From positions 1 to 41,317 of IMG/VR virus record IMGVR_UViG_3300004369_000040: a stretch of 41,317 nucleotides of DNA, one strand, 5' to 3'. This document shows positions 13,792-33,000 of the stretch, in pieces (position 1 is the stretch's first letter; each line of letters starts with the position of its first letter). This stretch comes from a virus. Under the pieces are notes generated by a model. That model was not told the DNA's origin. It ran no database searches and was given only the letters and a program-made list of their open reading frames with translations. Made by a program: the position numbers and the translations under genes.

Positions 13792-14480
13792 AAAGGATAA
13801 AGTTTCTTTGCTATTTCTTGCTGTGCTTCTTCGAGTAAATGCCCAGTTTTTCCAATTGGATAGATTAGCCTCAACTGTGTAATATAAAAATCTTCTATAT
13901 TATAATAACATCTGGTATCAATTAAATCAATATATTGCTGTATCTCGCAGTATTGTGCGTACAGTTGTTCATCGGTCATTACATCAAAACACACTAAGTT
14001 TTTGATGTTGTTATTGAAGTTTTTCCATTCGGACACATAACTAGAATATCTGTTATGTGTAGCATTTAGCATTACATAAGGCTGATCTTGCATGTATCTT
14101 TGCAATAGTATTATCTGTTGTAACCAATGCTTAAATGCATACAAATCGTTGTACCAATGCATGTAATGCAACTTGCTGTATTTTTTAAAACTATCACGCT
14201 TTCCGTATAAACTGTGTTTAAGTTGTGGGTTGAAGTTTACTTCGAAATTATTATCTGGGTCGTATCTGGTAGTGCGTTCTATATGAGTCCAAGCAATGAT
14301 TTTTAGTGTAGTAGGTTTAGATTTTACTGTTTGATAGACTATTCTTTCGTTTGATCCGCCACTTACTGCATTGTTTACACAGTCTAACTCTAACATGTTT
14401 GCCAGCAAATAGGGCCATGCTTGTGTTTTATCCGTTAAATCGTCACCATAAGTATGACTGCATCCAGTTACCCAAAGCAT
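13764..14480 (-). CDS. SGNH/GDSL-hydrolase-like protein between gp47 and gp46
   Basis: The gene encodes 238 aa. The N-terminus VTGCSHTYGDDL (residues 4-15) resembles block I of SGNH hydrolases (G-x-S-x-T/x-G-D, nucleophile Ser8), followed by AVSGGSNERIV (about 38-48) as in the glycine/Asn block, and a C-terminal GHLLEEAQQEIA where His214 sits like the block V histidine. The usual Asp three residues before that His is Lys here, so catalytic competence is uncertain. Middle residues are rich in Tyr, Trp and His. The ATG shares bases with the gp47 stop (TAATG), and the 3' end overlaps gp46, so it is fully embedded in the recombination operon. Esterase or deacetylase activity is inferred from fold motifs only. 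Confidence 0.6.
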   Translation of the reverse strand: MLWVTGCSHTYGDDLTDKTQAWPYLLANMLELDCVNNAVSGGSNERIVYQTVKSKPTTLKIIAWTHIERTTRYDPDNNFEVNFNPQLKHSLYGKRDSFKKYSKLHYMHWYNDLYAFKHWLQQIILLQRYMQDQPYVMLNATHNRYSSYVSEWKNFNNNIKNLVCFDVMTDEQLYAQYCEIQQYIDLIDTRCYYNIEDFYITQLRLIYPIGKTGHLLEEAQQEIAKKLYPLCSNLIHLQ

Positions 14481-15490
14481 TAAAGATTCCTGTAGATATC
14501 TAACATCAAGTTACGATCATATTGATCGCTTTCGATCTGTTGCAGTTGACTAGTAACAATAGTATCCACACTTTCAAAGTTGATCTCACCTGAGATTTGC
14601 ATGTCCATGTCCTCAACTTTTACAGGAATCAAACTCATTTCACGCAGTTGATACTCATCCATAAAAGTTTCTTTGATAAAGTTTGCTTCTTCGTAACTGA
14701 TGTCTACATCTAAGTTAACACGAGCATAGGTCTTTGGACCAAGATACTTTTCAGGACCTTCAAGTAGTTGGCTGATCTTTAACATGCGATACTTGGGTTG
14801 CTCGGGCCAAGCAATAAACTCTCTTGTGCCGTCCCAGTCCAATAGCATCATACCTCTGTCATCATCCCATGCATCGCTGTAGTTGTGTGCAAATGCATTA
14901 CCTGTATATACAACATTTCCTCGTTCTTGACGCTTGTGAAAATGTCCTGTGAACACAGTACCACAACGACCAAAGTCATTTGCATTAAGCTCACCGTGAT
15001 CAGGCATCTGTACCATAGCGTTCATATAAAAGTGAGGAAGTTCAAAGTGACCGATAACATAGTCAGCAGTAATTTTCTGCATTTGCTTGTGTTCATCACC
15101 TACTAACCATGGAACAAACGCAACACCATCCACTGTGGTAATGTCATTGTAAAGTTGGATATTCTCAAACTTTTTAATAAAAGCAATGCTGTTGTAGTCG
15201 CGTTTGTCACGATAGTATTCATCATGGTTTCCGGGGATAAAGTGTATTGTATCAAACGAATCGTTTAGTAAATCCAATGCGGCAATACTGTAGTTCAGCG
15301 TAGCGACATTAATACTTGCTCGTTGATGATGCCAGTCGCCCATAAAGATGCAGGTATCTGCACCCTGTGCTTTAGCCTCTTTACAAAACCAAGTAACAAA
15401 GTCCAGACAATCTTTGTTGAATGTCTGGCTATTGCTTTTGTTACCAAAGTGAATATCCGTGAATACGGCGGCCCGTTTGAACAAACTCAT
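14480..15490 (-). CDS. gp47: Recombination endonuclease subunit gp47 (Mre11-like nuclease)
   Basis: This is the Mre11/SbcD-type metallophosphoesterase, 336 aa (T4 gp47 339). All phosphoesterase motifs are visible: FTDIHFG (Asp12, His14), MGDWHH (Asp52), IPGNHDEYY (Asn88, His89), GHFELP (His148) and TGHFHKRQ (His183, His185). With gp46 it processes double-strand ends. The ATG at 15490 is the only sensible start because the first strand begins immediately after it. It lies just six bases behind a TATAAT box (15502-15497), which would give a leaderless or nearly leaderless transcript. The stop overlaps the start of the SGNH-like gene. Confidence 0.96.
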   Translation of the reverse strand: MSLFKRAAVFTDIHFGNKSNSQTFNKDCLDFVTWFCKEAKAQGADTCIFMGDWHHQRASINVATLNYSIAALDLLNDSFDTIHFIPGNHDEYYRDKRDYNSIAFIKKFENIQLYNDITTVDGVAFVPWLVGDEHKQMQKITADYVIGHFELPHFYMNAMVQMPDHGELNANDFGRCGTVFTGHFHKRQERGNVVYTGNAFAHNYSDAWDDDRGMMLLDWDGTREFIAWPEQPKYRMLKISQLLEGPEKYLGPKTYARVNLDVDISYEEANFIKETFMDEYQLREMSLIPVKVEDMDMQISGEINFESVDTIVTSQLQQIESDQYDRNLMLDIYRNL

Positions 15491-15496
15491 GTGTGT

Positions 15497-15524
15497 ATTA
15501 TAGCACCTTGTAAGTTATTGTCAA
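15497..15524 (-). promoter_or_regulatory. Sigma-70 promoter for gp47
   Basis: On the minus strand TTGACA (15524-15519), a 16-base spacer and TATAAT (15502-15497) are followed by ACACAC and the gp47 ATG. The -35 overlaps the gp55 stop codon. The expected start is at or next to the A of the ATG, implying a leaderless mRNA. Confidence 0.6.
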
Positions 15525-16363
15525 GAAGAAGTAGTAGAGGTTTCTAGTGGTTTTTCGTAATCTGCTCGTGCTTGAATCTCATTTTCAGTTTGCCGAGTGT
15601 AACTTGGATTTAGACCAGCATGTTCTAAAATATCATCTCTAATTATTTGATTTTTTTTCTCTAGATTCAATACACGGGTAAAACTATTTGTAATAGCCGC
15701 AGTGTAGTAAGCAAATGGATTCTCACTTTTGCTTTCATCAAACTGTAGACCTATCTGTGTAAGTTGTAGCAGTGCTTGGCTACGCATTTCATCATTGTAG
15801 GTATAGCCGCGCCAGTTACTACGAGTTCCGTAGCGTTCACATAACTTCATGTACATACGGGCAAGTTTGTTTGTGGTCTTGCCGTGTATTTTACTAAAGT
15901 TACCATTTTCTAGTCCACCTTCCCAGTGACTTTTGCCAACACAAACTGCAACATCATTGTCATCCAGTCTAAAGTGTTGAAAAGGAGGGAAGTTGCACTG
16001 GATGTGATGGTCAGCAACAGTTTTAGGATTCTTTTTACGACCTGGGTGCAGAGGAATGTGATCATGTGTCATAACACGAAATACCACATCTTTTTTGTCA
16101 ATTTTCTTCCAGTCTACTGCAAAGTCTGCTTGTTTTACTTTTTCACCGCGTTCTTTTGCTGCTTCGTATGCTTGTTTTTGTATTCTGTCTGCCTGATTGC
16201 GTTTTGCTTGTGCAATAGTACGAATGTTGATTTTATCCACATTTGGTAGGATAATGTCATAAACATCGTCGCCATCTGCAACAAAACTACTGTAAGTATT
16301 CTTAGATAAATGAATTTCTTTCAACAAATCGCGATTGTTGAGATAATTTCTCCGTTTAATCAT
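15521..16363 (-). CDS. gp55: Late-promoter sigma factor gp55 with N-terminal extension
   Basis: T4 gp55 is a reduced sigma factor that directs host RNA polymerase to TATAAATA late promoters. The sigma-like part is the C-terminal half: YGTRSNWRGYTYNDEMRSQA (about residues 186-205), then NPFAYYTAAITNSFTRVLNLEKKNQ (about 225-249), which corresponds to region 2. At 280 aa it is longer than T4 gp55 (185 aa). The first 175 residues hold a basic helix (AKRNQADRIQKQAYEAAKERG) and a His/Pro-rich segment (HDHIPLHPGRKKNPKTVADH). A near-consensus sigma-70 promoter (16420-16392) lies upstream. AGGA is 10 bases before the ATG. The TGA stop overlaps the -35 box of the gp47 promoter. Confidence 0.88.
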   Translation of the reverse strand: MIKRRNYLNNRDLLKEIHLSKNTYSSFVADGDDVYDIILPNVDKINIRTIAQAKRNQADRIQKQAYEAAKERGEKVKQADFAVDWKKIDKKDVVFRVMTHDHIPLHPGRKKNPKTVADHHIQCNFPPFQHFRLDDNDVAVCVGKSHWEGGLENGNFSKIHGKTTNKLARMYMKLCERYGTRSNWRGYTYNDEMRSQALLQLTQIGLQFDESKSENPFAYYTAAITNSFTRVLNLEKKNQIIRDDILEHAGLNPSYTRQTENEIQARADYEKPLETSTTSS

Positions 16364-16391
16364 GTGGTGAGATTCCTTTTAATATGCGTAT

Positions 16392-16420
16392 ATTATACAG
16401 CCTATAAATATACTTATCAA
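16392..16420 (-). promoter_or_regulatory. Sigma-70 promoter for gp55
   Basis: On the minus strand TTGATA (16420-16415), exactly 17 bases, then TATAAT (16397-16392): one mismatch to consensus. The expected +1 near 16385 gives a leader of about 21 bases with AGGA before the gp55 ATG at 16363. The spacer contains the plus-strand late box of gp48. Confidence 0.7.
16403..16410 (+). promoter_or_regulatory. Late promoter TATAAATA for gp48
   Basis: This is an exact late box with predicted +1 near 16416, followed by AAGGA (16431-16435) and the gp48 ATG at 16443. It lies wholly within the spacer (16398-16414) of the oppositely directed gp55 promoter. Confidence 0.75.
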
Positions 16421-16442
16421 ATAAAAAAACAAGGATTTTTTA

Positions 16443-17294
16443 ATGGCATTTGATTTAGGTAGTAAATTTAGTAGAAAGATTAGCGGTACTGTTACCGGTG
16501 GACTGGATAAAATCCTTCCTGGTAATGATATTGTTAGTAAAACTGCAAAAAGTGTATTAGGTGCTAGTGGTAACAGATTACTACAAGCAGGCCTTAATTT
16601 TGCAGGAGTTAACATTCTTGGCGAAGATCTTTTTAATAATATTAAAAGTGCAACATTTAGAGATAATGACACAAGAGTGCGGATAGGGCTAAGTCCGGGC
16701 AGTGGCAGTATTTTTTACAAAGATCCTGGTAATCAAATACTTGCTCCGCTGTTAGACACAGATGGCATACTTTTTCCTTATACACCAAATGTAAACATTA
16801 ACTACAGTGCAAGTTACAGTGCAATACAGCCAACTCACACAAATTATGCGCAACACAGCTATGCTCAAAGTGCAGTTGACTATATTGGTATAAATGGCAT
16901 GTTTACTGCAAACACAGCAGACGAAGCACGATATGTACTAGCAGTACTACACTTTATGCGTTCAGCAGTTAAGATGTTTTATGGTACAGATGGTACAAGA
17001 GGCACACCTCCACCAGTTTTAAGATTTAGTGGATATGGGCCATTTCAATTCAATAGTGTACCAGTTGTATTGGGTAGTTTTGCACATGATTTTGAAAACA
17101 GTGTGGATTACATTGAAGTACCTCTTGCAAGTAGTCCAGATGCAAGCACTAAAACAATGGTTCCTACACAGATGATGATTAATATGAACTTGCTTCCTAT
17201 CTATACTAAATCACAGGTAAGACAGTTTAGTTTAGAAGGATTTGCAAAAGGTGATTTCATAGGCAAACCTGGCGGTCCTGGAGGGTTTATTTAA
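16443..17294 (+). CDS. gp48: Baseplate tail-tube cap protein, gp48-like
   Basis: The gene encodes 283 aa. The core ILFPYTPNVNINYSASYSAI (about residues 109-128), then THTNYAQHSYAQSAVDYIGINGMF, and later PPPVLRFSGYGPFQFNSVPVVLGSF, is the conserved layout of gp48 proteins in marine T4-like phages, which cap the baseplate hub and start tube polymerisation. The N-terminal 75 residues are Gly/Ser/Leu-rich and helical. T4 gp48 has 364 aa; the related gp54 is the main alternative. Late box TATAAATA at 16403-16410 and AAGGA at 16431-16435 precede the ATG. The stop shares bases with the gp53 start (TAATG). Confidence 0.7.
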   Translation: MAFDLGSKFSRKISGTVTGGLDKILPGNDIVSKTAKSVLGASGNRLLQAGLNFAGVNILGEDLFNNIKSATFRDNDTRVRIGLSPGSGSIFYKDPGNQILAPLLDTDGILFPYTPNVNINYSASYSAIQPTHTNYAQHSYAQSAVDYIGINGMFTANTADEARYVLAVLHFMRSAVKMFYGTDGTRGTPPPVLRFSGYGPFQFNSVPVVLGSFAHDFENSVDYIEVPLASSPDASTKTMVPTQMMINMNLLPIYTKSQVRQFSLEGFAKGDFIGKPGGPGGFI

Positions 17295-17596
17295 TGGCTG
17301 TACAATATAGACCAGATAGTCCTTATGCAGATACAGAAATGTTTGAAAACTATTTGGATGTGCTAACACCTAGATTTATCAGGCCTTATCAAGATGATGT
17401 TCTGCACACGCTAACTAAAGTTCACGAATATCGTCCAGACTTATTGGCATTTGACTTGTATAGTAACAGTAATCTCTGGTGGGTTTTTCAAGCTCGTAAT
17501 CCAAATGCAATCGAAGATCCAATTTGGGATTTTAGACAAGGACTTAAATTTTACATTCCGAAAAAAGCAAATATTGAAGCATCGCTAGGAATCTAA
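17294..17596 (+). CDS. gp53: Baseplate wedge protein gp53
   Basis: The gene encodes 100 aa. The segment RPDLLAFDLYSNSNLWWVFQ followed by ARNPNAIEDPIWDF and GLKFYIPKKANIE is the LysM-like gp53 domain. T4 gp53 (196 aa) joins six wedges around the hub; this version keeps mainly that domain, with only about 45 residues before it. It begins inside the stop codon of gp48 (TAATG) and is followed after one base by the 908-aa gene, so the three are translated as one coupled unit. Confidence 0.85.
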   Translation: MAVQYRPDSPYADTEMFENYLDVLTPRFIRPYQDDVLHTLTKVHEYRPDLLAFDLYSNSNLWWVFQARNPNAIEDPIWDFRQGLKFYIPKKANIEASLGI

Positions 17597-30000: not shown

Positions 30001-33000
30001 AAAATTCTACAGCACAGCGCAGGCATGATTGTTCCTGGATATGTATTGAACAATGAAAAAGCAAATCTCGTTGACAGTATTGTTTATGTAAAAAATGAGT
30101 ATTCTAAATTTAAAAACACATTTTTACAAACACTAGAACAACTTGATTTGGACTTAACAAATCCAAGTAAATGCGTTGATGATATTCTAGATAGAATGAA
30201 TAATAAAAAGAATAGCGTATTTCCTTTCTATTACAGTGACATGCTACCTTTTGGTAATCAAAAAACACAATTAGTATACACAATTGATGATGCTACTGAA
30301 ACAGAATTTGAATTTAATACACAGTTTGATCTGACAAGCCTTAGCAATAGGGCTGTGTTAGTATATCATAACACTAATCTTCTAATAGAAGGACAAGATT
30401 ATACTTTTGATACAGTAGAAGCAAAAATTGTATTAACTACAACTGGCGGCGCGGCGACACCGAGCATTAATTTACAAGTTAACGATACAATTACAATTGT
30501 AGAATACACTGACACAAACGGTAGTTTTGCTCCTCCTACTCCAAGTAAACTAGGACTGTATTATAAATTCATACCTAGAAAGTATACAGATGACACTTAC
30601 AAAACTCCAAAGACTGTTGTACAAGGGCACGATGGAAGCATTTGGGTAGGATATGGTGATCTCAGAGACGATGTTATTTTTGAATTTGAAAAACGCATTT
30701 ACAACAATATCAAAACTCAGTATAACAGAAACCTGTTTGACTTTGCAGATGTGATCCCTGGATACTACCGTAGTACTATTACAGACTTTGCCGAATCTAA
30801 TAATATTATTAGAAGTTATTTTGGCGAATGGAGTTTACGCAATAGAGTCAAAGTGCAAGAAAATAACATTACACAAAGTGAAGATTTGTTTAGCTGGAAT
30901 TACAGAAACAGTGTTAATAAACTAGATGGTACTAGAGTTCCTGGATACTGGCGAGGAATATATAAGTGGATTTACGACACAGATAGCCCGCATACTAAAC
31001 CATGGCAAATGCTTGGAGTATCAGAAAAACCAAATTGGTGGGATGATCGCTATGGCGAAGCACCTTATACATTTGGTAACACTGTTCTTTGGGAAGATTT
31101 GCGTGATGGCAAACTTTATAGTGATGCAACTGGTACAACATACGAGACTTTATTAAATTATCAGCGTCCATCATTGATGGATATTATCCCTGTAACAGAA
31201 CAAGGTGAACTAAAAGCACCTGCAGACTTTTTGATTAGAGATGCATATGAAACTAATGTTAATGGACAATGGGCATTTAGTGATCAAAGTCCAGTAGAAA
31301 CTGCGTGGAGACGCAGTAGTGAATTTCCTTTTGTAGTGCAGATTCTTGCTGCTAACTTATTGCCTGCAAAATATGGCACACTTATGTTTGATACAAATTT
31401 GTATACCAACGATAATCAGTATGACCAAATTTTACAAAAAGGTAAAAGTTACAGACCTGGAATTGCTGATTATAAAATACATGGCAGTACTTCATCTGAT
31501 GGTAGCATTAACCGCGTAGAAGGGTATAATCAATACATTGCTGAATATGTAAAAAATCAAGGGTATACCATTGACATCATTAATAATGAAATAAACAATC
31601 TAGAACTTAATCTTTGTTATGGTGTATCAGGATTTACAGATAAGAATTATATTAAGGTTGTTGCAGAGAGTGTTAGTCCTGGTAGTAGTAGTGAAAACAT
31701 TTTTATTCCAGACGAGGACCTCACAATCTATACTAAGAAAAGTGCTCCGTTAGAGCGTGTTGTATACAGCGGTATTCAAATTATTAAAAGAGCAAGCGGA
31801 TACGAAATACAAGGATATGATGTAGAAAATCCATTCTTTAAGATTATTCCTAGTGTGCAAAACAATAATTTTAATAATCGCACACTTGCTGATATAACCT
31901 TTTTCGAGTATCAAGATTTTGAATCTAGAATTATTAACATCCCATATGGCACAGTGATCACAACTCCGCAGCAAGTTTTTGATTTTATAGTAGGATATCA
32001 AAGATACTTGTTAAGTAGAGGTTTTGTTTTCAATGAAATCAATGAAGACGGACAGCCTTTTGATTTTGTAAGTGCTGGAATGGAGTATGCATTTTGGCTA
32101 CAACAAGGATGGGCAGTTGATAGTGTATTTGTTATAAGTCCATGTTTTAATAAACTTACTATTAACAGAGAATTCACCACAGTTGATAATATTCAAAATG
32201 TAGGACGAATTAAGGATGTTAATGGAAGAATTATTAAACCTGAATTTTATGATGTAAGCAGAATTGATAATCGTTTTGAAATTTCTATAGATATTGAAAA
32301 TACGCAATTGTACAGTGTACAAATCGATCCTGTACAGCACGAACATGTTCTTGTGTTTAATAATACTACAATCTTTAATGATATTATCTATCAACCAGCA
32401 CTAGGAAATAGACAAGAACGATTGAAATTGATCGGCAGTAAGAGCGGTGACTGGAATGGCACAATGCATGCACCTGGCTTCTTTCTTAGCAATGATACGA
32501 TTAACTTATGGCAGACTTATACAGACTATAAAAAAGGCGATATAGTAAGTTATCAAAACATAGTATATGTTGCAAAAGTAAATCATTTAGGAACACAGAT
32601 ATTTGATTTTAATCAATGGCTAGTTGCAGACAATATTAGTACTGGTATGATTAAAAACCTTACTACTAAAAGTGATCAATTTAAACAATTCTTTGATTTA
32701 GATAATTTGAACCTGGAAGATGGTGTTGACAAATTAGGCAAAGGTATTATTGGATTTAATGAAAAAAGTTATCTTGCAGGACTAGGGCTAGATGATGTTA
32801 GCCAAGTAAAGTTCTATCAAGGTATGCTAAAACAAAAAGGTACTAGTGCTACAATCAACAAACTAATCGATGCAGAACTTACTAACTTGAATCAAGAAAT
32901 TGACTATTTTGAAGAATGGGCATTCCGTGTTGGCGAGTTTGGCAGTATTGATAGTAACCAGGTTATTGAAACAATTATTCCAGAACAACAAGCATCTAAT

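Follow-up and report, generated by a model that had tools for sequence, protein, structure and literature searches.

A T4-type late box lies within the spacer of the gp55 sigma-70-type promoter in a marine jumbo phage sequence: probable compaction of divergent promoters

Two divergent genes face away from each other across a short gap in the window, that is, the whole 41,317-bp viral sequence from IMG/VR analyzed here (Table 1). Their start codons are separated by 79 bp (gap 16364–16442). The minus-strand gene encodes a homologue of gp55, the sigma factor of late transcription, an identity that the first-pass annotation had assigned from the sequence and that profile matches bear out. Among named phages, its nearest counterparts are the gp55 proteins of Phosso, PA5oct, Atu_ph07, and similar large phages, followed by those of RaK2-like phages; identity to gp55 of PA5oct-like phages is ~44%. 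The plus-strand gene had been called gp48. This name stays unconfirmed, as its profile match is described only as a virion structural protein, and no solved structure was matched by a profile built from 14 homologues. Elsewhere in the window, an ORF at 11396–11821, beside a gp46-like gene, matches phrog_447, labeled "NAD synthetase," together with several homing-endonuclease families.

The gap holds a promoter element for each direction. Upstream of gp55, minus-strand TTGATA and TATAAT hexamers match the sigma-70 consensus at 11 of 12 positions across a 17-bp spacer, and the leader that follows carries an AAGGA ribosome site, features expected of a sigma-70-type promoter. Inside that spacer, in its entirety and on the plus strand, lies a T4-type late box, TATAAATA. 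The overlap, which places an early and a late element in the same bases, is real and confirmed, and the first-pass description of the hexamers and of the box wholly within their spacer proved exact to the base. A hexamer scan of both strands of the 41,317 bp, with spacers of 15–19 bp, returned four sites with at most one mismatch in all, the gp55 promoter included. A promoter scan of positions 15000–17500 yielded 11 sigma-70-like sites, not above shuffled sequences (mean 7.9), and its top two scores fell on the gp55 promoter and on the perfect promoter at the end of gp55. Exact TATAAATA occurs three times in the window and NATAAATA seven times. The predicted starts in Table 1 are rule-of-thumb positions. 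A further perfect sigma-70 promoter, TTGACA-N17-TATAAT at 1519–1547, stands upstream of the ORF at 908–1495, on the head-gene strand, and a late box at 923 adjoins.

Table 1. Features of the gp55 junction and of a control junction in the window
Feature	Position	Strand	Basis or remark
Control late box TATAAATA for baseplate-hub gene	9823..9830	+	Faces minus-strand box 9845..9852
Control late box TATAAATA, opposite strand	9845..9852	-	Late/late overlap; gp55 feedback inapplicable
gp47/SbcD-like nuclease subunit, downstream of gp55	14480..15490	-	phrog_100, E 4e-67
Second, perfect sigma-70 promoter TTGACA-N16-TATAAT, end of gp55, upstream of gp47-like gene	15497..15524	-	Sequence scans
gp55 homologue, late-transcription sigma factor, 280 aa	15521..16363	-	phrog_12791, E 1.4e-80; phrog_234, E 8.2e-24
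AAGGA, likely gp55 ribosome-binding site	16374..16378	-	Read from sequence
-10 hexamer TATAAT of gp55 promoter, spacer 17	16392..16397	-	Sequence; predicted start ~16385
T4-type late box TATAAATA in gp55-promoter spacer	16403..16410	+	Sequence; box family enriched upstream of genes; predicted start ~16416
-35 hexamer TTGATA of gp55 promoter	16415..16420	-	Sequence
AAGGA, likely ribosome-binding site of structural gene	16431..16435	+	Read from sequence
Virion structural protein, 283 aa (earlier "gp48")	16443..17294	+	phrog_12050 "virion structural protein," E 3.6e-44
gp53-like baseplate wedge subunit, next in late operon	17294..17596	+	phrog_7145, E 3.6e-23; Pfam PF11246 just below cut-off

Searching named phages at the DNA level with the junction gave no matches, and protein searches were therefore used to collect relatives. 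The window, together with 80 loci from IMG/VR and 13 named jumbo phages, makes up a comparison set of 94 sequences; eight further named phages stand outside the 94-row tree. A divergent homologue of the structural gene accompanies gp55 in 74 of the 80 IMG/VR loci, and the remaining six have just 87 to 440 bp upstream; the start of the structural gene is readable in 72 (six have no match to the gene and two more no start). Three of the 13 named phages have a different neighbor at gp55: an extra nucleotidyltransferase-type gene intervenes before the structural gene in Atu_ph07 and Phosso, and in XacN1 the neighbor is a large ORF annotated only as predicted.

All 81 marine sequences, the 80 loci and the window, hold both elements together, and the promoters, arranged in at least three geometries, always lie close enough to clash. 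The nested register, with 5 bp from the end of the late box to the -10 hexamer, is found in 11 of the 94 sequences (the window, L001–L009, and L019). In the abutting register the late box touches the -35 hexamer or overlaps it by 1–2 bp (47 of 94, plus four with a slightly shorter offset), and in the start-site register it lies at the gp55 start, downstream of a promoter of the TTGCTT-N17-TATACT type (19 of 94). Seven named phages place the box 1–3 bp beyond the -35. The last six were classed as separated or unclear, with offsets of 44 in PA5oct, 46 in Atu_ph07 and XacN1, and 94 in Phosso, and ambiguous assignments in Vibrio 2.275 and SCTP-2; all six sit on very long branches of the gp55 tree, where their placement is unsure. 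The best-scoring sigma-70 site was taken for each sequence, save for L054, L055, and L077, for which the second-best, clade-fitting site was used. Starts of gp55 in the start-site clade were set at least 3 bp off by the script, which leaves element-to-element spacing unaffected. Mapped onto the gp55 tree of the 94 sequences, the six layout labels, assigned by hand from the element survey, cost 6 changes where 5 is the least possible; judged from these sequences, then, register is inherited within clades and shifted between them. In L008 and L009, two of the nested-type junctions, a weak second promoter (TTGGCT-16/17-TATAAA) also begins at the edge of the late box, and these junctions may represent a step between nesting and abutment.

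The first-pass annotation had read the overlap as a possible self-limiting early-to-late switch, proposing a conserved register among relatives as a check and naming separated elements between unchanged flanking genes as the observation that would speak against it. The register did not prove to be conserved, since layout differs by clade. The adverse case exists in PA5oct, where the same two divergent genes flank elements that are apart, the late box lying 21 bp beyond the -35.

Both the gp55 promoter and the late box look genuine, given that late boxes in this phage group are strongly enriched upstream of genes, structural genes included, and that the gene pair and its elements recur in relatives. 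Late boxes of the form NNTAAATA number 83 upstream of ORF starts versus 11 inside ORFs in eight contigs, and 44 versus 0 in CBB and again in Munch. To this enrichment the window adds an exact TATAAATA box and a phage-encoded gp55, both expected of a T4-type late promoter. That one of the two elements is an unused chance match, with the true gp55 promoter elsewhere, for example, or structural transcription coming from further upstream, is very unlikely. Sigma-70 scores in the start-site clade are weak (7.2–10.1), the best-scoring site of L054, L055, and L077 lies elsewhere, and transcript data for the window phage or its kin, PA5oct-like phages among them, were not found in the literature searched. 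Chance, however, would hardly make both elements recur at a spacing fixed within clades, nor put TATTTA at the -35 edge of all three gp55 promoters in three abutting-clade contigs and beside no other promoter listed for those contigs. Scores of the gp55 promoter range from 9.5 to 14.1 across the 47 abutting loci and stand at 11.7 in the window. The same distribution of TATTTA led us to reject the idea that, beside TTGACA, it forms part of a general early promoter. We likewise dropped, by eye, the idea of a conserved operator or palindromic element in the spacer, which AACTACGTAGTT in some members of the abutting clade had suggested, as other members differ.

The leaders of gp55 in relatives have features of their own. 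A hairpin opens the leader in 13 of 15 gammaproteobacterial jumbo phages (L086, L088, L090–L093, L136–L139, and L141–L143), with a loop of AAGGAUC, ACGGAUC, or AAGGAUU, one base longer in XaC1, and with stems that vary in sequence while pairing is kept. Among the 15, RaK2 and KP13-7 are without a gp55-leader hairpin with an A(A/C)GGAU(C/U) loop, and none was seen by eye in the window's short gp55 leader. Some 20–26 nt downstream of the hairpin follows a GGA-bearing ribosome site (ACAUGGAG in most), and the pair, which resembles the CsrA/RsmA consensus, makes a candidate CsrA/RsmA-like double site. Control loops gave 0 to 2 matches each upstream of genes. Hairpins of the A(A/C)GGAU(C/U) class also stand before a RecA-like gene in CBB and before two Munch genes, one of them for a recombination protein. 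A long gp55 leader of another kind, in which a conserved GACC-TGTTTGT-GGTC hairpin is accompanied by repeated GGC(A/G)C motifs, occurs in L012–L014, L020, L032, L033, L039, L042, L044, L049, L052, L054, and L078; this hairpin is missing in six relatives (L045, L048, L050, L056, L062, and L079).

Overlapping divergent promoters of the lambda PR/PRM type make two polymerases compete for common DNA; lambda does so with operators and one holoenzyme, whereas the window pairs two different sigma factors. Late promoters of T4 work with gp55, gp33, and the gp45 clamp. The T4 late promoter is described as a TATAAATA box of 8 bp lying roughly one turn before the start, with no -35 element and read by gp55 polymerase, and A/GCTAAATA variants are known from Aeh1 (PMC2988020). 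The window box is of the T4 type, and the A/GCTAAATA variants of Aeh1 are also present in the abutting clade; the window differs from T4 in that its late box sits inside the sigma-70 promoter of gp55 itself. For CBB and GAP32, an ATAAATA late motif has been reported before structural genes, with 35 predicted sites in CBB, together with a second promoter class, of the TGAAACG/TATA type, upstream of the gp55-like gene; overlap at gp55 goes unmentioned in the accessible portion of that description (PMC5259590). The late box of these two phages, unlike that of the window, lies 3 bp outside the -35. In phi29, adjacent early A2c/A2b and late A3 promoters constitute an early-to-late switch (PMC3100819). 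That switch involves the DNA-binding proteins p4 and p6, whereas polymerase exclusion alone is proposed for the window. The titles and abstract openings searched, with most subscription papers outside the search, contained no description of an overlap between a gp55 promoter and a late box.

The geometry of the junction suggests how it would work. Two ordinary promoters would stand on common DNA in the 79-bp gap between divergent operons: a host sigma-70-type promoter leading to gp55, and a T4-type late promoter, read by gp55 polymerase, leading to the structural operon. From the position of the two promoters we infer that gp55 polymerase and sigma-70 polymerase would be unable to occupy the site simultaneously. 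Since they would not bind together, gp55 polymerase at the late promoter would reduce initiation at gp55 on the DNA copy it occupies, with the converse effect from sigma-70 polymerase. Once the elements had bases in common, the nested register would become locked in.

Such an arrangement must be weighed against what a short gap produces by itself. When leader lengths from the same genomes (60 late and 45 sigma-70) are placed at random in a 79-bp gap, nesting results in 15.8% of placements, any overlap in 58.5%, and starts less than 75 bp apart in 100%, so that the polymerases would inevitably clash; in a gap this short, overlap is close to forced. Divergent junctions elsewhere tell a similar story. 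Twelve late/late junctions were drawn from seven IMG/VR contigs, the window (its own 9823/9852 pair included), CBB, and Munch; the late boxes cross in 10 of them, and in the other two stand back to back, 23 bp apart. The window pair consists of face-to-face perfect late boxes between a baseplate-hub gene and a 651-aa ORF, and G001 has a like layout at 31422/31496. At a divergent junction of CBB and Munch, between a structural gene and a ClpA-like protease gene, a late box lies within a few bp of the -35 belonging to a TATAAT promoter, a composite almost identical to the one these phages have at gp55; the structural-side gene is virion-structural in CBB and hypothetical in Munch. Overlap is not specific to the regulator gene, as late/late and ClpA-like junctions show it too. 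Across this survey, which relied on crude ORF calling and a promoter score made by hand, early and late promoters overlap frequently, yet not universally.

A self-limiting feedback, in which gp55 polymerase at the late box would shut the gp55 promoter and cap the late sigma, with the exclusion selected and the register free to drift, seems unlikely to us. T4 late complexes melt DNA from -12 to +2 and have gp45 at their upstream end (PMC7892883); were this extent valid here, a nested late complex at 16403–16410 would melt into the gp55 -35. The feedback reading also gains from the several geometries in which all 81 marine sequences keep the promoters within clashing distance, and from the gp55-strand NATAAATA late boxes of the window, which lie only at 9852, 6118, and 923; with none upstream of gp55 on its own strand, gp55 would be shut off late. 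Against it stand PA5oct, whose elements are separated between the same flanking genes, the ClpA-like gene of CBB and Munch, served by the same composite, and the usual overlap of late/late junctions. Moreover, early promoters in T4 are silenced by means other than promoter exclusion. Of the switch as first proposed, the overlap is real and the exclusion may be deduced from geometry; a feedback purpose gains no specific support, because register shifts between clades, PA5oct has its elements apart, and overlap appears at junctions where feedback has no logic. The bolder evolutionary version, by which marine jumbo phages re-created a selected exclusion of the gp55 promoter by a gp55-dependent late promoter in at least three geometries (nested, abutting, and face to face), so that the late sigma would curb its own supply at the onset of late transcription in a negative feedback free of any regulator, strikes us as distinctly unlikely.

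The exclusion could in principle act in the other direction, with strong sigma-70 occupancy of the gp55 promoter silencing the structural late promoter until early shutdown, and the gp55 promoter does come close to consensus in the window and across most of the abutting clade. But late promoters in T4 depend on gp55 and are silent early regardless, and the other late promoters of this phage have no such lock, which makes a lock of this kind very improbable.

The probable explanation, in our judgment, is that these are compact divergent promoters: mutual exclusion would be a by-product of compaction, and the nested register an accident of lineage rather than a dedicated switch. Compaction has its own difficulties, for not all early/late divergent junctions overlap, the elements being separated at CBB 54740, CBB 323175, Munch 234070, and G002 67516, and clashing distance kept in 81 of 81 marine sequences by at least three geometries could mean that exclusion itself was selected. 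An overlap in a single genome is weak evidence for regulation before relatives and other junctions have been checked. Were the feedback true, the junction would be among the simplest of early-to-late timers, needing no repressor but only the competition of two polymerases for 29 bp; if it is false, the site still shows how tightly phages of this group pack divergent promoters.
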